Source: Candidatus Sulfotelmatobacter sp.
GTDB lineage: Bacteria; Vulcanimicrobiota; Vulcanimicrobiia; Vulcanimicrobiales; Vulcanimicrobiaceae
Direction of reading: 5' to 3'
NCBI GenBank assembly: GCA_035504415.1
Contig: DATJRY010000013.1
Location: 124,001-188,000, forward strand
DNA: 64,000 nt
Within the stretch, counting starts at the first letter, position 1. Every line of letters starts with the position of its first letter. The notes under the pieces are model-generated. The model was given only the letters and a program-made list of their open reading frames with translations. It was not told the origin of the DNA and did no database searches. A program made the translations under genes and the position numbers. Positions 54,646 to 63,253 of this stretch are shown here, one piece after another.

Positions 54646-55455
54646 ATGGAGAACCTGATCACGCGTGGGCGCTTGGCCGCCCTCGCCTTCGCAGTCGGCA
54701 CCGCGGTGCTGGCGACGACCGCCGTCGGAGCGACCGACGTGACCGACATCGGCACGCTCGACCAGAGCGTGCTGGGGTCGATTCCCGCCTTCCAGTCGGC
54801 GAATCGGCAGCTGCAGCAGTACGGCGCCACCCTCCAGAAGCAATATCTGGCGCGGGCGCAGCACGCCTCGCAAGCCGACCAGCAGAAGCTCGCCAGCGAG
54901 TTCCAGGCGAAGATGTCCGACAAGCAGCGCGCGCTGGTCGGGCCGCTGATGCAGAAGGCGCAGATCGCCGTCGCGTCCGTCGCCTCCTCGAAGAATCTGA
55001 GCGTCGTGCTCGACAAGCGCATGGTCGTGGTCGGCGGTCAGAACATCACCGGCAACGTCCGCGACCTGCTGACCGGGATCGGCGATCCGGTGCCCCCGGT
55101 CTCCACGCCGCCGCCATCGCACGTCGGCTTCGTCGACCAGCAGCAGATCGACGCGACCCCCAAGGTCAAAGCCGCGAGCGACGACTTCGTCCAGTTCAAG
55201 GCGCAGCAGGACAAGATCTTCGGCGACAAGCTCAAGAGCGCGCACACCGACGCCGATCGCGACGCGGTGCTCAAGGACTACCGCAAGACGCTCGACGACC
55301 GCCAGAACGCGACGCTCAAGCCGGTCATCGACCAGACGCGCAGCGCGATCGCCGACGTCGCGCGCAGCAAGGGCCTCGTGCTCGTCGTCGACCGGGCCGA
55401 CATCATCTACGGCGGCACCGACATCACCTCGGACGTCACCGCAAAACTGAAGTGA
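54646..55455 (+). CDS. Skp/OmpH-like periplasmic chaperone, duplicated domain
   Basis: 269 residues with a signal peptide (LAALAFAVGTAVLATTAVGA). Two OmpH-type units follow in tandem, each a helical coiled coil ending in a VVLDKR...ITGNV or VVDRAD...ITSDV strand pair. Skp holds unfolded barrel proteins for BamA; position right after bamA supports this. The duplication is unusual. The stop overlaps the next GTG. Confidence 0.85.
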   Translation: MENLITRGRLAALAFAVGTAVLATTAVGATDVTDIGTLDQSVLGSIPAFQSANRQLQQYGATLQKQYLARAQHASQADQQKLASEFQAKMSDKQRALVGPLMQKAQIAVASVASSKNLSVVLDKRMVVVGGQNITGNVRDLLTGIGDPVPPVSTPPPSHVGFVDQQQIDATPKVKAASDDFVQFKAQQDKIFGDKLKSAHTDADRDAVLKDYRKTLDDRQNATLKPVIDQTRSAIADVARSKGLVLVVDRADIIYGGTDITSDVTAKLK

Positions 55456-56768
55456 TCCGCGGCGCGCGTTCGATCGCCGGCTCTCTCGCCGCGGTTGCCG
55501 CCGCGGCGCTGCTCTCGTCGTGCGCTCGCCCGGCACCGGCACCGCCCGGCTCGAACGCGATCGGCTACGTCGACATGACGCTGCTGGTCCAGAAGCACCC
55601 GCTCTACGATCAGCTGGCGCGCTACGATCGCTCGCTCGAGGCGTTCGACCTCAGCCAGACGGTGCCGCAGGCCGGCGTTCCCGACGCCGAGCTGCGCCGG
55701 CGCGAAGCGGAGCTCGAGCGCGAGCTGCACGACGCCGCCGACCGCACCCAGAAGCTGCTCGACCAGAAGCAGCAGCAGTACCAGACGCAGGAGCAGCAGG
55801 CCATCGCGGCCGCGCTGCGCGGCGCCGGCTTCGGCGGCCCGAGCGCGGCGCAGATCGCGGGCAGCGTGACCTCGACCGCGCAGCAGCAGCAGAGCACCGT
55901 CGCGACGCAAGTGCAGCACGATTACAACAGCTACCGCGAGACGCTGCAGTCGCAGGACCGCGCGCAGATGATCGCCGCGCAGAAGGCGCTGGCGGCGCGA
56001 GCGGACCGCACCTATCGCGCGCAGGCCGAGCAGCTGCAGGCCAAGGAGTCGGCGCTCTCGCTGCAACTGGCCAGCGCCGACGCGCCGACGCGCCTGGCGC
56101 TCAAGACCAAGCTGTCCTCGCTGGCGCTCGACGACGCGACGCGCGAGGACGCGCAGAAGCAGCTCCAGGACCTGGACCGGAAGGAAGCCGACCAGGTCGC
56201 CGCGATGCGCAATCGCGATCAGCAGACGCTGGCCGCGCTGCAGACGCAGCTCAAAGCCCAGGTCCAGCGCGATCTCGATACGCAGATCGCTTCGATCTCG
56301 AAGCGATCGCTGACCTCGCTGGCCCAGCGGCAGAAGACGCTGGCCGCGCAGATCACCCCGTTCAGCGCCAACGCGGTCGGCACGAAAGGCCAAGTCAACC
56401 CGAGCCTGCCGGCGCCGCTGCGGGCGCGCATCCAGCAGCTGCACGACGACTATCAGAAGCGCTTCCAGAGCGACGCCAAGACGACCATCGCGGACTTCCA
56501 GAAGACCCGCGAGGACCTCTCGCGCCGGTACGCCGAGCTGCACGGGATCGACGCCGGCGCCGACAGCGGCGCGCAGGCGCAGATCGCCGACCTCAAGCGC
56601 AAGCGCGACGACCTCTACGGTGAGATCACCGGCCAGATCGATCGCGAAGTCAAGCTGATCGCGCAGCAGCGCGGTATTTCCGTCGTCCTCTCGGACGTCG
56701 TCGCACCCGCCGGCGGAGTCGACCTCACGCCGGACGCTCTCAAGGACATCGAAAGCCTCCACCAATGA
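55452..56768 (+). CDS. Long Skp/OmpH-like lipoprotein
   Basis: 438 residues. Lipobox LSSC near residue 24, then GYVDMTLLVQKHP (OmpH start), a very long Gln/Ala/Arg-rich coiled coil, and the OmpH end (GISVVLSDVVAPAGGVDLT). Much longer than Skp (about 160 residues). Lipid anchoring would tether the chaperone to a membrane. GTG start; the stop overlaps the following ATG. Confidence 0.82.
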   Translation: MIRGARSIAGSLAAVAAAALLSSCARPAPAPPGSNAIGYVDMTLLVQKHPLYDQLARYDRSLEAFDLSQTVPQAGVPDAELRRREAELERELHDAADRTQKLLDQKQQQYQTQEQQAIAAALRGAGFGGPSAAQIAGSVTSTAQQQQSTVATQVQHDYNSYRETLQSQDRAQMIAAQKALAARADRTYRAQAEQLQAKESALSLQLASADAPTRLALKTKLSSLALDDATREDAQKQLQDLDRKEADQVAAMRNRDQQTLAALQTQLKAQVQRDLDTQIASISKRSLTSLAQRQKTLAAQITPFSANAVGTKGQVNPSLPAPLRARIQQLHDDYQKRFQSDAKTTIADFQKTREDLSRRYAELHGIDAGADSGAQAQIADLKRKRDDLYGEITGQIDREVKLIAQQRGISVVLSDVVAPAGGVDLTPDALKDIESLHQ

Positions 56769-57172
56769 GACTCGCACCCGCGCTCTTCGCCGCCGGCTTG
56801 TTGGCCCTGTCCGCTTGCTCGAACAACGCATCGAGCAGCGGCATCGGCCTGATCGACTCGCAGCGCATTCAGGCGAACTGGCCGAAGTTTCAGAACTACC
56901 AGAACCAGTTGGCGGTGGACGCGCAGACGATCGAGCGTTCGAAGGGCTCCGCCAACCAGAAGCTCAAAGAGCGCGCCGAGCTGCAGCAGAAGTTCTTGCA
57001 GGCGCAGACCGAGCTGACCGACGACGTCACCAAGGCGGCGCAGCAGGTCGCGAACGACAAGCACCTGACCTACGTGTTTACCCGCGAGTACGTGGGCTAC
57101 GGCGGCGTCGACATCACGCCGGACGTCGAGAAGGTTCTCCAGATCGTGGAGAAGCCGTCGCCCACGCCGTGA
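56765..57172 (+). CDS. Short Skp/OmpH-like lipoprotein
   Basis: 135 residues. Lipobox LSAC near residue 18, GIGLIDSQRIQANWPKFQNY start, coiled coil, and the C-terminal VGYGGVDITPDV motif shared with its two upstream paralogues. It overlaps lpxD by 4 nt. Third of three skp-like genes in a row. Confidence 0.85.
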   Translation: MRLAPALFAAGLLALSACSNNASSSGIGLIDSQRIQANWPKFQNYQNQLAVDAQTIERSKGSANQKLKERAELQQKFLQAQTELTDDVTKAAQQVANDKHLTYVFTREYVGYGGVDITPDVEKVLQIVEKPSPTP

Positions 57173-58194
57173 CGCTCGCCCTGGGCGCGTTCGCCGAACG
57201 CACCGGCGGCCGCGTCGTCGGCGATCCCTCGGTGCTGGTCGAGCGGGTCGCCGCCGTCGACGACGCCGGGCCCGGCGCGCTGACCTTCGCGGTCGACGCG
57301 CACTATCTCAAAGTCGCGCTGGCATCGAGCGCCGCCGCCGTCCTCACCGACGCCAAGCTGCTGCGCGAGGGCGAACGCTACGCCAAGCCGATCCTGGCCG
57401 TCGACAACACGCGGGTCGCGCTGGCGCGTCTGCTGGCCGCGTTCGAACCGCCGCGTCCGCGCGGCCCGTTCGTCGACCCCAGCGCCGTCGTCGACCCCAG
57501 CGCGTCGATCGGCGCCGACGTTTGGATCGGACCCAACGTCGTGGTCGGGGCGCAGGCCCGGGTCGGCGATCGCACCGTGCTCGCCGCCGGCGTCGTGCTG
57601 GGCGCGGGCGCCCGGGTCGGCGCCGACGCGTACTTCCACCCGCGCGCCTACTTGGCGCACGGCTGCATCGCCGGCGACCGCGTCATCCTGCAAGCGGGCG
57701 CCGTGGTCGGTGCGGACGGCTTCGGCTGGGCCTTCGACCAGGGTCGGCTGCAGAAGATCCCGCAGGTCGGGATCGTCGAGCTGGGCGACGACGTGGAGAT
57801 CGGTGCCAACTCGTGCGTCGACCGGGCCCAGACGGGCGTCACCGCGATCGGCGAGGGCAGCAAGATCGACAACCTGGTCCAGATCGGCCACAACTGCCGC
57901 ATCGGCAAGCACACCGCGATCGCGGCCCTGACCGGGCTGGCCGGGACGACCACCATCGGCGACTACGTCCAGGTCGGCGGTCACTCCGGCTTCCGCGGCC
58001 ACATCACCGTCGGCGACCGGGTCACCGTCTCGGGCAACGCCATGGTCTGGGGCGACGTCGCCCCCGGCGCGACCATCAGCGGTCAGCCGGCGCACGACCA
58101 CCGCGAGGAGATCCGACTCCAGGCGTACCTCCGCCGCCTGCCGAAACTGTTCGCCCGGGTCGACGCGCTCGACGGCGGCCCACCGAAGAGCTGA
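57169..58194 (+). CDS. lpxD: UDP-3-O-acylglucosamine N-acyltransferase LpxD
   Basis: Third step of lipid A synthesis. N-terminal uridine-binding domain, then a left-handed beta-helix of hexapeptide repeats (IGADVWIGPNVVVGA) with GFGWAF, ELGDDVEIGANSCVDRA and IGHNCRIG (catalytic-His region). 341 residues. GTG 57169. Confidence 0.95.
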   Translation: MTLALGAFAERTGGRVVGDPSVLVERVAAVDDAGPGALTFAVDAHYLKVALASSAAAVLTDAKLLREGERYAKPILAVDNTRVALARLLAAFEPPRPRGPFVDPSAVVDPSASIGADVWIGPNVVVGAQARVGDRTVLAAGVVLGAGARVGADAYFHPRAYLAHGCIAGDRVILQAGAVVGADGFGWAFDQGRLQKIPQVGIVELGDDVEIGANSCVDRAQTGVTAIGEGSKIDNLVQIGHNCRIGKHTAIAALTGLAGTTTIGDYVQVGGHSGFRGHITVGDRVTVSGNAMVWGDVAPGATISGQPAHDHREEIRLQAYLRRLPKLFARVDALDGGPPKS

Positions 58195-58196
58195 CG

Positions 58197-59069
58197 TTGC
58201 AGTATCAGTCCACGTTGCGCGACGCGATCGGCTTCGAGGGAGTCGGTCTCCACACCGGCGCCCCGGCGCGCGTCCGCGTCCTCCCCGCCCCGGCCGGCCA
58301 CGGCCTGCGCTTCCGCCTCGACGACGCGGTCGAGTTTCCCGCGCGCGCCGACTACGTGGTCGAGACCGTGCGGGCGACCGTGCTGGGGTCGGGCGAGCAC
58401 CGCGTCTCGACGGTCGAACATCTGCTCAGCGCGCTGCTGGGCTGCGGTGTCGACAACGCGCTGATCGACGTCCACGGGCCGGAGATCCCGGTCGAGGACG
58501 GCAGCGCCAAGGTCTTCGCCGACGCCATCGACGCCGTCGGCCTGGCGCCGCAGCGCGAGGCGCGGGTGCGCTGGATCCCGACCCAGACGCACGTCTTTCG
58601 CGACGGCGACAAGCTGCTGGTGATCGCGCCGGCCTCGAGCTTCCGCGTGCGCATGACGGTCGACTACCCGCCGCCGGTCGGCGCGCAGTACGTCGAGGCC
58701 GAGATCGTGCCCGAGCAGTACCGCGCGCAGGTGGCCCCCAACCGCACGTTCGGCTTCCAGCACGAGATCGAGGCGCTGATCCGCCGCGGCTTGGCGCTGG
58801 GCGGGACGCTCGACAACGCGGTGGTGTTCGGTCCGGACGGCCCGCTGGCGCCGTTGCGCGCGCCGAGCGAGCCGTGTCGGCACAAGATCCTCGACCTGGT
58901 CGGCGATTTCGCGCTGCTCGGCGCCTACCCGCAGTGCGAGGTCGTCGCGATCAAGAGCGGTCACAAGCTCCACTGCACCGCCGTGCGCGAGCTGGTGGGT
59001 TCGCCTGCGGCGAACCCGTCGCGGTCCTCGCTTCGCTCCGGTCCGCTTACCGCCGGCGAACCGGTCTAG
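58197..59069 (+). CDS. lpxC: UDP-3-O-acyl-N-acetylglucosamine deacetylase LpxC
   Basis: Zinc deacetylase, the committed step of lipid A. Zinc ligands in STVEHLLSAL and HKILDLVGDFALLG; catalytic His in GHKLH. FEGVGLHTG start. 290 residues from TTG 58197. The last roughly 23 residues (GSPAANPS...TAGEPV) are encoded by a palindrome and a dispersed repeat and are probably not native LpxC sequence. Confidence 0.95.
   Translation: MQYQSTLRDAIGFEGVGLHTGAPARVRVLPAPAGHGLRFRLDDAVEFPARADYVVETVRATVLGSGEHRVSTVEHLLSALLGCGVDNALIDVHGPEIPVEDGSAKVFADAIDAVGLAPQREARVRWIPTQTHVFRDGDKLLVIAPASSFRVRMTVDYPPPVGAQYVEAEIVPEQYRAQVAPNRTFGFQHEIEALIRRGLALGGTLDNAVVFGPDGPLAPLRAPSEPCRHKILDLVGDFALLGAYPQCEVVAIKSGHKLHCTAVRELVGSPAANPSRSSLRSGPLTAGEPV
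58997..59017 (+). repeat. 9-bp palindrome inside lpxC 3' end
   Basis: GGGTTCGCC-TGC-GGCGAACCC. The GGCGAACC arm recurs at the very end of the gene, so an alternative larger hairpin is possible. Confidence 0.75.
59019..59046 (+). repeat. Dispersed repeat family B, copy 2 (in lpxC)
   Basis: 26 of 28 positions equal the unit after dnaA (40916-40943). Here it is translated as part of the LpxC tail. Confidence 0.6.
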
Positions 59070-59075
59070 CCCAGC

Positions 59076-59549
59076 ATGGCCGCCTACGACGTGCGCGAGA
59101 TCATGCGGATCTTGCCGCACCGCTACCCGATGCTCTTGCTGGACCGCATCCTCGAGCTCGAGCCGATGGTCAGCGCGCGCGGCTACAAGAACGTCAGCGT
59201 CAACGAGCCGATGCTGACCGGCCATTTCCCGCTCAACCCGGTGCTGCCGGGCGTCTACATCATCGAAGCGCTGGCGCAGCTGGCCGGCACGACGATCTTG
59301 AAGCCGGGCGATCAGAGCCGCAAGACGCCGTACCTGGCCGGCGTCGACGGCTTCCGCTTCCGCCGCCCCGTCATCCCGGGCGACCGGCTCGACATGTGGG
59401 CCCGCGTCGCCCGCGTCAAGCTCAACATGGGCGTCGTCGTGGTCGAGGCGAAGGTCGGCGACGAGCTGGTCTGCGCCGGCGAGCTGATGTTCTCGGTCGT
59501 CAGCGATCCGGGCGCGTTCGGCGTCGACGCGACGGTGCTGCACCTGTGA
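59076..59549 (+). CDS. fabZ: 3-hydroxyacyl-ACP dehydratase FabZ
   Basis: Hot-dog dehydratase of fatty acid synthesis. LPHRYPMLLLDR, catalytic His in GHFPLNPVLPG and Glu in IIEALAQLAG. 157 residues. Its place between lpxC and lpxA is common; it competes with LpxA for 3-hydroxyacyl-ACP. The stop overlaps lpxA. Confidence 0.96.
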   Translation: MAAYDVREIMRILPHRYPMLLLDRILELEPMVSARGYKNVSVNEPMLTGHFPLNPVLPGVYIIEALAQLAGTTILKPGDQSRKTPYLAGVDGFRFRRPVIPGDRLDMWARVARVKLNMGVVVVEAKVGDELVCAGELMFSVVSDPGAFGVDATVLHL

Positions 59550-60319
59550 TCCATCCGACCGCCGTCGTCCACCCCACCGCGAAGATCGGCGTCGACGTCG
59601 AGATCGGGCCATACTGCATCGTCGGCGCGAAGGTCGCCATCGGCGCGCGCTCGCTGCTGCTGGCGCACGTCGTCGTCAACGGCCGCACCACCATCGGCGA
59701 GGACTGCGAGATCCACCCGTTCAGCACGGTGGGCGGCCCCTCGCAAGACCGCAAGGCCGTCGTCGGTGAAGACGCCGTCACGACGATCGGCGATCGCACC
59801 GTGATCCGCGAGTACGTCTCGATCAACCGCGGCACCGCCGATGCCGGCGGCGTCACCTCGGTCGGCAACGACTGCCTGTTGCTCGGCTACACGCACGTCG
59901 CGCACAATTGCCGCATCGGCGACCACGTCACGATGTCGAACTTGGCGCAGCTGGCCGGACACGTCGTCGTCGAGGACCACGCCTCGATCGGCGCGATGGC
60001 TGGCGTCCACCAGTTCGTGCGCATCGGCCGCTTCGCGTTCGTCGGCGGCTACAGCAAGATCGTGCGCGACGTTCCGCCGTTCTTCTTGGCGGAAGGGAAC
60101 CCGGCCGAGGTCTACGGGCTCAACGCCGTCGGCCTGCGTCGCGCCGGCTTCTCGCGCGAGGCGTTGGGCGAGCTCAAGGACGCGTACAAGACGATCTACC
60201 GCTCGGAGCGCAACGTCTCGCAGGCCGTTTCGGTGCTGCGCGAGACGGTGTCGACGGACGAGGGACGCACGTTGCTGGCGTTCCTCGAAGCCTCGTCCGA
60301 CCGCGGGATCACCAAGTAG
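59546..60319 (+). CDS. lpxA: UDP-N-acetylglucosamine acyltransferase LpxA
   Basis: First step of lipid A. Hexapeptide beta-helix from IHPTAVVHPTAKIG, YVSINRGTADAGGVT, catalytic-His segment YTHVAHNCRIGD and the C-terminal helical domain (GLNAVGLRRAGFS). 257 residues. GTG 59546 overlaps the fabZ stop. Confidence 0.96.
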   Translation: MIHPTAVVHPTAKIGVDVEIGPYCIVGAKVAIGARSLLLAHVVVNGRTTIGEDCEIHPFSTVGGPSQDRKAVVGEDAVTTIGDRTVIREYVSINRGTADAGGVTSVGNDCLLLGYTHVAHNCRIGDHVTMSNLAQLAGHVVVEDHASIGAMAGVHQFVRIGRFAFVGGYSKIVRDVPPFFLAEGNPAEVYGLNAVGLRRAGFSREALGELKDAYKTIYRSERNVSQAVSVLRETVSTDEGRTLLAFLEASSDRGITK

Positions 60320-60331
60320 CGGTCGCGCGCC

Positions 60332-61441
60332 GTGCGCGTCTTCGTGAGCACGGGCGAGGCCTCGGGAGAGCTGCTCGCCGCCGACCTGTTGGGTGCGATG
60401 CGCGCGCGCGTCGCGCTCGAGGCCGAGGGCATCGGGAACGAGCGCCTGGAGGCCGCCGGCGTGCGGCTGGTGCAGCGCACGCGCGGCTGGGCGTCGCTGG
60501 GGCCGATCTCCGCGCTGCGCAAGATTCCGCGCTTGTACGCGATCATGCTGCGCACGGCGTGGCAGCTGCGCCGCCGGCCGCCGGACCTGGTACTGCTGGT
60601 CGACTTCGGCGCCTTCAACGTGCGCTTGGCGAAGACGCTGCGGCAGCTCGGGTTTCGCACGCCGATCGTCTACTACGCGCCGCCCGCGGCGTGGCTCGAC
60701 AACGTCAAGCGCGCCTATCAGGTCGCGCGGCTGTGCGATCCGCTCACGCTGTTCCGTCACCAAGCGGACTTCTATCGCGGGCTCAAGCTCCCGATCGGGT
60801 TCGTCGGCCACCCGCTGGTGAGTACCATCGGCGCCCGCCCGCCGCTGCCGCCGCCGCCGGCCAACGGCGGCCTGATCGCGATCCTGCCCGGCAGCCGCGG
60901 CGGGGAGATCGAACGCCACGCGCCGCGGCTGCTCGACGCGCTGGCGCGCGTGCGCGAGCTGCGCCCGAACGTGCGCGCGCTGCTGGTCGCGGCCGACGAC
61001 GACGCGCAGCGGCACCTCGAGCATCTGCTCGCGCTGCGCTCGCCGCTGCCGGTCGAGATCGTGCGCGACACGCGTGACGCGCTGCGCCGTGCCGACGCCG
61101 CCGCCATCGCGTCGGGGACGGCGGTCCTCGAGGCGGCGCTGGTGCAGACGCCGGCGCTGGCGCTGTACGTGCTCTCCGAAGCGCAGGCGAAGATCGCCCG
61201 CCGCGTCTATCGCGGCGCCTACATCACGCTGCCGAACCTGGTGCTCGACGAGCCGCTCGTCCCCGAGCTGCTGCAAGAGGCCGCGACGCCCGCCGCCTTG
61301 GCCGACGCGCTGGTCGCGCTGCTGGCCGCACCCGACCGGCAGCTGGCCGGCTACGCGCGCCTGCGCGAGGCGCTCGGGCCGCCCGACTCGCTGCAGCGCA
61401 ACGCGGCCTGGGTGCTCGAGCGCGTCAGCGGGCCGGTGTGA
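60332..61441 (+). CDS. lpxB: Lipid-A-disaccharide synthase LpxB
   Basis: GT19 glycosyltransferase joining lipid X and UDP-diacylglucosamine. STGEASGELLAADLL, YYAPPAAW, GHPLV, ILPGSRGGEIERH and SGTAVLEAALVQTPALALY. 369 residues. GTG 60332. No lpxI or lpxH lies between lpxA and lpxB. Confidence 0.95.
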   Translation: MRVFVSTGEASGELLAADLLGAMRARVALEAEGIGNERLEAAGVRLVQRTRGWASLGPISALRKIPRLYAIMLRTAWQLRRRPPDLVLLVDFGAFNVRLAKTLRQLGFRTPIVYYAPPAAWLDNVKRAYQVARLCDPLTLFRHQADFYRGLKLPIGFVGHPLVSTIGARPPLPPPPANGGLIAILPGSRGGEIERHAPRLLDALARVRELRPNVRALLVAADDDAQRHLEHLLALRSPLPVEIVRDTRDALRRADAAAIASGTAVLEAALVQTPALALYVLSEAQAKIARRVYRGAYITLPNLVLDEPLVPELLQEAATPAALADALVALLAAPDRQLAGYARLREALGPPDSLQRNAAWVLERVSGPV

Positions 61442-62178
61442 CCGTGCGCATCTACCATACCAGCGACCTGCACGATCACCGTGACGTCGCCGCGCCGTTG
61501 ACGGCGCTGCGCGACGCGCGGCCGGGGATGTACGTCGACTGCGGCGACAGCTTGCGCGGCTCGCAGACGATGTATCACCGGCACGAACCGATCGTCGACG
61601 AGCTCGACCGCGCGGCGATCGACGTGCAGGCGATGGGCAACCGCGAGTTCCACTACCTGTTCGGCGCCGTCGGTGCGCGGATCGCGCGCATGCGCCACCC
61701 GGTCGTATGCGCGAACCTGGTCGACACCAAGGGGCGCGCGCTGCCGTTCACCGCCGACCGCGTGTTCGCACGCGACGACGCCGGCACGCCGTGGTCGGTG
61801 CGCTTCTTCGGGTTGCTGGTCGTGCAGTACCCGAGCGGCTCGCCGTGGGAACGGCTGTTCGGCTGGCGGTTCCTGGACCCGTTCGACGTCGCCGCGCGCA
61901 TCGCCGCGACGACGCCGCCGGAGACGACGCTGATCGCGCTCTCGCACTTGGGCTTGCGTGCCGACCGGCTGTTGGCGCAGCGCGTACCGCGCCTGGAGCT
62001 GATCTTGGGCGGCCACAGTCACGACACGCTGCACGAGCCCGAGCTGGTCGGCGGCGTGCCGATCGTGCACGCCGGCCCGTACGGCGCGTATGCGTCGCGG
62101 ACCGAGCTGACCAAGGACGCGAACGGGCGCGCGCGGATCGCCGACTTCGCGCTGGAGCCGCTGCGCGCCGGTGCGTGA
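61438..62178 (+). CDS. Cytosolic UshA/5'-nucleotidase-like metallophosphoesterase
   Basis: 246 residues with calcineurin-like metal motifs: D10-x-H12 (TSDLHDH), GDS around Asp37, GNRE at 67-70 (His of GNHE replaced by Arg), LSH170 and GGHSH (193, 195). Only the catalytic domain of the UshA family is present, without signal peptide or the C-terminal substrate domain, so it should act in the cytosol. It overlaps lpxB and the next gene by 4-8 nt. UshA hydrolyses UDP-sugars and LpxH is also a metallophosphoesterase, so hydrolysis of UDP-diacylglucosamine to lipid X is a reasonable inference. Confidence 0.8.
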   Translation: MTVRIYHTSDLHDHRDVAAPLTALRDARPGMYVDCGDSLRGSQTMYHRHEPIVDELDRAAIDVQAMGNREFHYLFGAVGARIARMRHPVVCANLVDTKGRALPFTADRVFARDDAGTPWSVRFFGLLVVQYPSGSPWERLFGWRFLDPFDVAARIAATTPPETTLIALSHLGLRADRLLAQRVPRLELILGGHSHDTLHEPELVGGVPIVHAGPYGAYASRTELTKDANGRARIADFALEPLRAGA

Positions 62179-63253
62179 GGTCTTGTTCGTCACCAACGGG
62201 CACGGAGAAGCCGCCATCGCCGCTCGCATCGCGGCCGAGCTGCGCGCGCGCGCGCCGCTGGCGACACGGCACTTCGCGCTGGTCGGCGAGCGGCTGGGCG
62301 GCGGCGACTTCGCCGACGTCGGTCCACAGCGCGCGTTGCCGTCCGGCGGGCTGGTGGCGATGGGCAACCTCGCGGCGTTCGCGCGCGACCTGGGGGCCGG
62401 CTTCGTGCAGCTGTTCGCGCGCCAGGTGCGCTTCCTGCGCGCGGCGCGTGGGCGCTATGCGGCGATCGTCGCGGTCGGCGACGCCTACGCGTGCGCGCTG
62501 GCGCGCCTGGCCGGCGGCCCGCTGGTGTACGTGGGTACCGCCAAGAGCGTCTACGTCGCACCGTACGGGCCGGGCGAGCGGCGCATCATCGCGGCGGCGC
62601 GGCGGGTTTTCGTGCGCGACGCGGCGACCGCGGCCGCGCTGTGCGCCCAGGGCGTCCCGGCCGAGGCGCCGGGCAACGTCATCGTCGACCTGCTGGCGTC
62701 GGACGAACGCGTCGACTGGCGGGGAACGCCGCGCGTCGCGGTACTGCCCGGCTCGCGCGAGCGCGCGTACGCCGACGCGCGGCAGCTGGCCGCGGTGATC
62801 GCGCGCGTGCGCGCCGGCGCGCCGCAGCTCGACGCGGTGCTCTCGATCGCGCCCAATCTCGACCCGGCGCGCTTCGCGCCCGCCCTCGCCGCCGGTCCGC
62901 TGCGGGCATGGCCGGGGCCGCTGGGCGCGCTGCTGCCGGAGGCGACGCTCGTGCTCGGCCAGAGCGGGACCGCCAACGAGGCGGCCGCGGCCGCCGGCGT
63001 CCCGGTCGTCGCGCTCGAGCTGGCCGGCGCGCGCCGTGACGCCTGGTACCGCAAGCGCCAGCGCGGGCTGCTCGGCGACGCGTTGCTGATCGCGCCCGGC
63101 GATGAGGCGGGCGCCGCCGCCGCCGTCGCGGCGCTGCTGGCCGACCCCACTCGGCGCGCCCGGATGGCCGCCGTCGGCCGCGAGCGGATGGGGTCGCCGG
63201 GCGGGGCCGCCGCGATCGCCGGCGCGATCGCCGAGCTGGCGGTGGCGGCGTGA
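62171..63253 (+). CDS. LpxB-related glycosyltransferase (lipid-A-disaccharide synthase-like)
   Basis: 360 residues, GT-B fold. VTNGHGEAAIAARIA start, YVGTAKSVYVAPYG, VLPGSRERAYAD and GQSGTANEAAAAAGVPVVALEL parallel LpxB motifs. It resembles the LpxB-related family known from cyanobacteria and other phyla, whose function is unknown. A tandem pair with lpxB suggests a second sugar transfer in envelope lipid synthesis. GTG 62171 overlaps the phosphoesterase gene. Confidence 0.82.
   Translation: MREVLFVTNGHGEAAIAARIAAELRARAPLATRHFALVGERLGGGDFADVGPQRALPSGGLVAMGNLAAFARDLGAGFVQLFARQVRFLRAARGRYAAIVAVGDAYACALARLAGGPLVYVGTAKSVYVAPYGPGERRIIAAARRVFVRDAATAAALCAQGVPAEAPGNVIVDLLASDERVDWRGTPRVAVLPGSRERAYADARQLAAVIARVRAGAPQLDAVLSIAPNLDPARFAPALAAGPLRAWPGPLGALLPEATLVLGQSGTANEAAAAAGVPVVALELAGARRDAWYRKRQRGLLGDALLIAPGDEAGAAAAVAALLADPTRRARMAAVGRERMGSPGGAAAIAGAIAELAVAA

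Follow-up and report, generated by a model that had tools for sequence, protein, structure and literature searches.

The window analyzed here, a DNA stretch of 64,000 nucleotides, carries lpxD, lpxC, fabZ, lpxA and lpxB in this order upstream of the candidate gene, which is followed by a gene related to lipid-A-disaccharide synthases (Table 1). LpxB needs lipid X, which is the product of the LpxH step. The initial annotation had stated that these five genes are present and that no lpxH, lpxI or lpxG lies in the cluster, and this held when examined by open reading frames and profiles. The GTG start of the candidate overlaps the TGA of lpxB by 4 nt (GTGTGACC) and its 3' end is in turn overlapped by the next gene, so that the three genes are tightly packed. 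On the outer sides of the cluster, the provisional reading of the gene downstream of the TIGR03492 gene is a membrane protein resembling O-antigen ligase, and three consecutive genes between bamA and lpxD (54646-57172), whose order is kept throughout the class, were, again provisionally, assigned as Skp/OmpH-like periplasmic chaperones.

Table 1. Coordinates of the lpx genes, the candidate and its Arg69 codon within the window
Feature	Position	Strand	Basis
lpxD	57169..58194	+	frame, synteny
lpxC	58191..59069 (exact start undetermined)	+	frame, synteny
fabZ	59076..59549	+	ORF, synteny
lpxA	59546..60319	+	frame and start; same order in relatives
lpxB, lipid-A-disaccharide synthase	60332..61441	+	PF02684 219.7 bits; TIGR00215 189.9 bits (cut-off 190.25)
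candidate UDP-2,3-diacylglucosamine pyrophosphatase	61438..62178	+	ORF, GTG start, 246 aa, UshA-type catalytic domain only
Arg69 codon (GNRE; LpxH-type His-to-Arg)	61642..61644	+	position; invariant in two alignments
TIGR03492 lipid-A-disaccharide-synthase-related gene	62171..63253	+	TIGR03492 182.5 bits (cut-off 219.2); synteny

A short UshA-type domain with arginine in the GNH(E/D) motif

The description of the candidate as a UshA-type domain of 246 residues overlapping lpxB, without a signal peptide or a C-terminal domain, was also confirmed by the open reading frame, a structural model and profiles. Its N-terminus is the first beta strand with no signal peptide ahead of it, the C-terminal nucleotide-binding domain of UshA is lacking, and no transmembrane helix was seen. 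The AlphaFold2 model is a single compact domain (pLDDT 95.0, pTM 0.93), for which Foldseek gave YunD, E. coli UshA and CD73 as the best PDB matches with TM scores (by query) of 0.73-0.81; a sequence search of the PDB likewise gave matches of the UshA/5'-nucleotidase type. The profiles matched were SoxB, 5'-nucleotidase and UshA, and only Metallophos families were matched among Pfam-type profiles. In hhalign comparisons the candidate aligned with E. coli UshA at 99.9% (E 1.2e-33), covering the whole catalytic domain, but with E. coli LpxH at only 1.2%, the BLASTP E value for the latter being 0.56. Neither the LpxG profile NF033458 nor the LpxI_C profile PF06230 matched the candidate, it was not detected by the LpxH profile TIGR01854, and no acyl-binding lid of the LpxH type could be identified in it.

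The motifs of the candidate are D10-x-H12, G36-D37, G67-N68-R69-E70, H170 and G192-H193-S194-H195, and the seven metal-ligand positions expected from LpxH and UshA (D10, H12, D37, N68, H170, H193 and H195) show little or no variation in the alignments. The initial annotation had listed these motifs with GNRE in place of GNHE, which holds as an observation, but it had taken GNRE as a defect, which does not hold: GNRE is the hallmark of LpxH. Among metallophosphoesterases, replacement of the catalytic histidine of GNH(E/D) by arginine is reported only for LpxH (PMC3087551, PMC5016852), where the arginine (Arg80 in P. aeruginosa, Arg81 in another species) grips the phosphate of lipid X (PMC5016852). 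E. coli LpxH reads GNRDF and E. coli UshA reads GNHEF, while the candidate reads GNREF. Arginine was found in 75 of 76 distinct sequences from the phylum, which had been collected by whole-protein similarity and not chosen by motif, and a chance or decayed GNRE was therefore rejected. The phylum also has long UshA paralogues (about 490-530 aa); six of these all read GNHEF, and each of the five with a complete N-terminus begins with a hydrophobic, signal-like stretch. We consider GNRE the strongest single mechanistic clue to an LpxH-type role, the role of Arg69 itself being inferred.

The lone exception, from genome G079 (L022/L084), is an orthologue with GNHE. This genome has an extra gene between lpxA and lpxB, which was checked as a possible replacement enzyme and, read by eye, looks to encode an S41-type (Ctp) peptidase.

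Absence of the known enzymes and distribution of the candidate

The LpxH step is known for being carried out by non-orthologous enzymes, namely LpxH, LpxI and LpxG, and the absence of each was judged with a curated profile (TIGR01854, PF06230 and NF033458, respectively). The search of the whole genome suggested by the initial annotation gave no LpxH, LpxI or LpxG over the cut-off in the genome of the window, which is 95.7% complete, and the same was true of the 148 other genomes of Vulcanimicrobiota ("Eremiobacterota"), 149 in all. LpxH (E. coli, over the cut-off) and LpxI (Caulobacter) were detected as positive controls. The absence of LpxG is less well calibrated because no control genome exceeds its cut-off, there being no Chlamydia among the controls. 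Weak matches to the LpxG profile, of about 26-84 bits against a cut-off of 350, appeared in 28 of the 149 genomes; they are generic YkuE/YaeI-type phosphoesterases in some deep lineages, of a kind also matched in the control B. subtilis, and almost no genome of the window's class has them. In the window's own genome the LpxG profile had no match even at E<=1e-5, and the other phosphoesterases found there are CpdA/SpdA-like, YfcE-like, TIGR00282 and SbcD-like. A hidden LpxH, LpxI or LpxG in this genome was thus rejected for want of a profile match over the cut-off, although an unknown further enzyme is not excluded because these tests rest on curated profiles.

The candidate has a homologue in 142 of the 149 phylum genomes and in 84 of the 85 good ones, and LpxB was found in 141. 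Four of the seven homologue-negative genomes also lack a detectable LpxB, a joint absence that could reflect assembly gaps around the cluster. In one genome (G141) the first match was weak, yet a GNRE protein is present; in another (G144), whose lpx contig breaks off about 4 kb past lpxB, the homologue was not resolved. As to whether lpxB-adjacent homologues occur in relatives lacking the three known enzymes, a check that the initial annotation had also proposed, they are lpxB-linked throughout: the homologue directly follows lpxB in 31/31 fetched loci of the window's class, far beyond chance, and 57/60 fetched loci across the phylum have it together with lpxB on one stretch; in the other classes it shares a contig with lpxB, at a distance of about 0.4-4 kb. 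In almost every locus of the phylum the next gene after the candidate is the TIGR03492 gene. It is glycosyltransferase-like and of unknown function, and its coupling to the candidate across Vulcanimicrobiota leaves room for the possibility that a second LpxB-like enzyme acts in the same pathway.

In Vulcanimicrobium alpinum, a cultured member of the phylum (Eremiobacterota/Vulcanimicrobiota), LPS covers the outer membrane and the 3-OH fatty acid iso-C14:0-3OH is present (PMC9758169). Of the 149 genomes, 147 lack KdsC, and Kdo may be either absent in Vulcanimicrobiota or made differently, as in cyanobacteria. In deep lineages (L062:11017-13178; also L064, L073 and L074), a Gfo/Idh oxidoreductase resembling UDP-GlcNAc 3-dehydrogenase lies between fabZ and lpxA, and the lpx cluster of L062 also has a DegT aminotransferase, the pair being GnnA/GnnB-like. 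It is possible that lipid A of these lineages is amide-linked (GlcN3N), in which case the substrate there may carry an amide-linked acyl chain.

We also scanned 84,980 species genomes for AM[AT]xGNREF, which yielded 84 stretches and 76 homologues; since this sample was picked by the motif, it says nothing on how often GNRE is kept. Many of the carrier records are without a phylum name, and for these the placement rests on locus content or the tree. The carriers are essentially Vulcanimicrobiota, Armatimonadota (including Zipacnadia, Fimbriimonadia and Chthonomonadia) and WS1; the few titled as other phyla are labels of metagenome-assembled genomes whose loci have the gene order of Vulcanimicrobiota, except for one outlier from Muiribacteriota. 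In Armatimonadota the homologue is not beside lpxB. There it follows kdsD and/or kdsC, identified by TIGR00393 and TIGR01670, in 33 of 51 loci, with no kds gene found nearby in the remaining 18, and the KdsC adjoining it is intact. When 50 further carrier genomes outside the first phylum set were profiled for LpxC, LpxI and LpxH, LpxC was present in 48, LpxI was missing in 49 and LpxH exceeded the cut-off in none, while four had sub-threshold LpxH-like proteins with GNHD, resembling LpxH2. The single LpxI-positive carrier is the Muiribacteriota genome, whose homologue of 434 aa sits on a very long branch outside the clade described below.

In a maximum-likelihood tree the GNRE proteins, the Muiribacteriota outlier aside, form one clade (support 99/93) that splits into an Armatimonadota side (99/96) and Vulcanimicrobiota (98/90), with the UshA paralogues apart. 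A recent horizontal pick-up was rejected, as the tree follows the phyla. The tree is consistent with a single event in which a UshA-type ancestor was recruited before Vulcanimicrobiota and Armatimonadota diverged, the gene then being inherited vertically; with one such recruitment the arginine of the candidate would be convergent with that of LpxH.

A proposed fourth class of the LpxH step and its rivals

These observations led us to propose that the candidate serves Vulcanimicrobiota and Armatimonadota as their UDP-2,3-diacylglucosamine pyrophosphatase and represents a fourth class of enzyme for the LpxH step, a reading that we regard as very likely (probability roughly 0.82) in the absence of activity or complementation data. 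The family, the motif, the co-occurrence with lipid A genes, the complementary absence of the known enzymes, the two LPS gene contexts and the single clade are shown, whereas the substrate, the position of the cut, the metal, the role of Arg69 and catalysis are inferred. The claim of a new enzyme for this step, made in the initial annotation, is thus supported in silico with high but not conclusive confidence, as activity is unshown. Its further claim that the solution is unrelated to the known ones is too strong, because the calcineurin-like metallophosphoesterase superfamily includes LpxH and LpxG as well as the candidate, which differs from them in family. We found no description of the candidate family in the open literature searched, subscription papers and preprints being outside our coverage.

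In the proposed mechanism, a catalytic domain of the UshA/5'-nucleotidase type would have lost its signal peptide and its nucleotide-binding C-terminal domain, and because of this loss the enzyme would share the cytosol with its substrate. D10, H12, D37, N68, H170, H193 and H195 would hold two divalent metals, which would activate a water molecule for attack on the alpha-phosphorus of UDP-2,3-diacyl-GlcN, the atom at which LpxH and LpxG also act. Arg69, replacing the catalytic histidine, is predicted to form a salt bridge that neutralizes the beta-phosphate, the part played by Arg80/81 in LpxH. The products released would be UMP and lipid X, the latter passing to LpxB, which the overlapping gene encodes.

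Several other explanations can be considered. The candidate could be another hydrolase of the LPS pathway, for example one acting on a phosphate or pyrophosphate of Kdo or lipid A, with lipid X made by an unrecognized fifth enzyme. It is kdsD/kdsC, rather than lpxB, that adjoin the gene in Armatimonadota, and an unknown family would be invisible to absence tests by profile. On the other hand, in the window's phylum the gene adjoins lpxB and KdsC occurs in only 2/149 genomes, while the KdsC next to the gene in Armatimonadota is intact; this pattern in both phyla therefore indicates a common role in early lipid A synthesis, not in the removal of Kdo phosphate, and the arginine signature points to the LpxH substrate. 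We regard this explanation as unlikely, and its specific form, replacement of the Kdo-8-phosphatase, was rejected on the same distribution of KdsC.

It is still less probable that the candidate is a mere housekeeping enzyme like UshA, a cytosolic nucleotidase or UDP-sugar hydrolase linked to lpx genes only to clear UMP or to tune UDP-GlcNAc. Its top matches in both sequence and fold are indeed 5'-nucleotidases and UshA. UshA, however, binds nucleotides with its C-terminal domain, which the candidate does not have, and the catalytic histidine of GNHE, kept in the UshA paralogues of the phylum, is arginine in the candidate; moreover, such a role would not explain why the candidate accompanies lipid A genes almost without exception or why LpxH and LpxI are absent. 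The remaining possibility, that a divergent LpxG/YaeI-like or LpxH2-like phosphoesterase encoded elsewhere performs the step, draws some support from the weak LpxG matches (28/149) and from the LpxH2-like GNHD proteins (4/50 further carriers). It is all but excluded, since the window's genome has no LpxG match at E<=1e-5 and such weak matches are nearly absent from its class; LpxH2 in P. aeruginosa is no substitute for LpxH (PMC3087551).

The fourth-class reading can be put more boldly: the enzyme likely arose when an ancestor shared by Vulcanimicrobiota and Armatimonadota recruited a member of the UshA/5'-nucleotidase family, and the His-to-Arg change that defines LpxH likely evolved in it independently, its activity again being inferred. 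The LpxH step is essential in most bacteria that make LPS and is a current antibiotic target. If the proposal is true, a fourth class closes a gap in the lipid A pathway of two bacterial phyla, and two metallophosphoesterase families have converged at one residue, histidine to arginine, on one substrate. The role proposed for the arginine of LpxH, recognition of the beta-phosphate, would then become directly testable, and annotators would gain a motif, a short UshA domain with GNREF, for the missing gene.

Comparison with known systems

The candidate shares with LpxH (TIGR01854) the superfamily, the seven metal-ligand positions, the cytosolic location, the size of about 240 aa, the GNR(D/E) motif with arginine for the catalytic histidine, and the co-occurrence with lipid A genes, but there is no detectable sequence relation between the two and the core of the candidate is of the UshA type. 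With the UshA/5'-nucleotidase family (E. coli UshA, CD73, YunD and SoxB) the relation is reversed: the candidate is homologous to their catalytic domain over its whole length, but differs in lacking the signal peptide and the C-terminal nucleotide-binding domain, in having GNRE instead of GNHE, and in its lipid A/LPS gene context. Chlamydia LpxG (NF033458), which replaces LpxH, likewise belongs to the calcineurin-like superfamily but has an N-terminal transmembrane helix and GNHD (PMC4807358), unlike the candidate, and LpxI (PF06230) catalyzes the same pathway step as that proposed here for the candidate but comes from an unrelated family.
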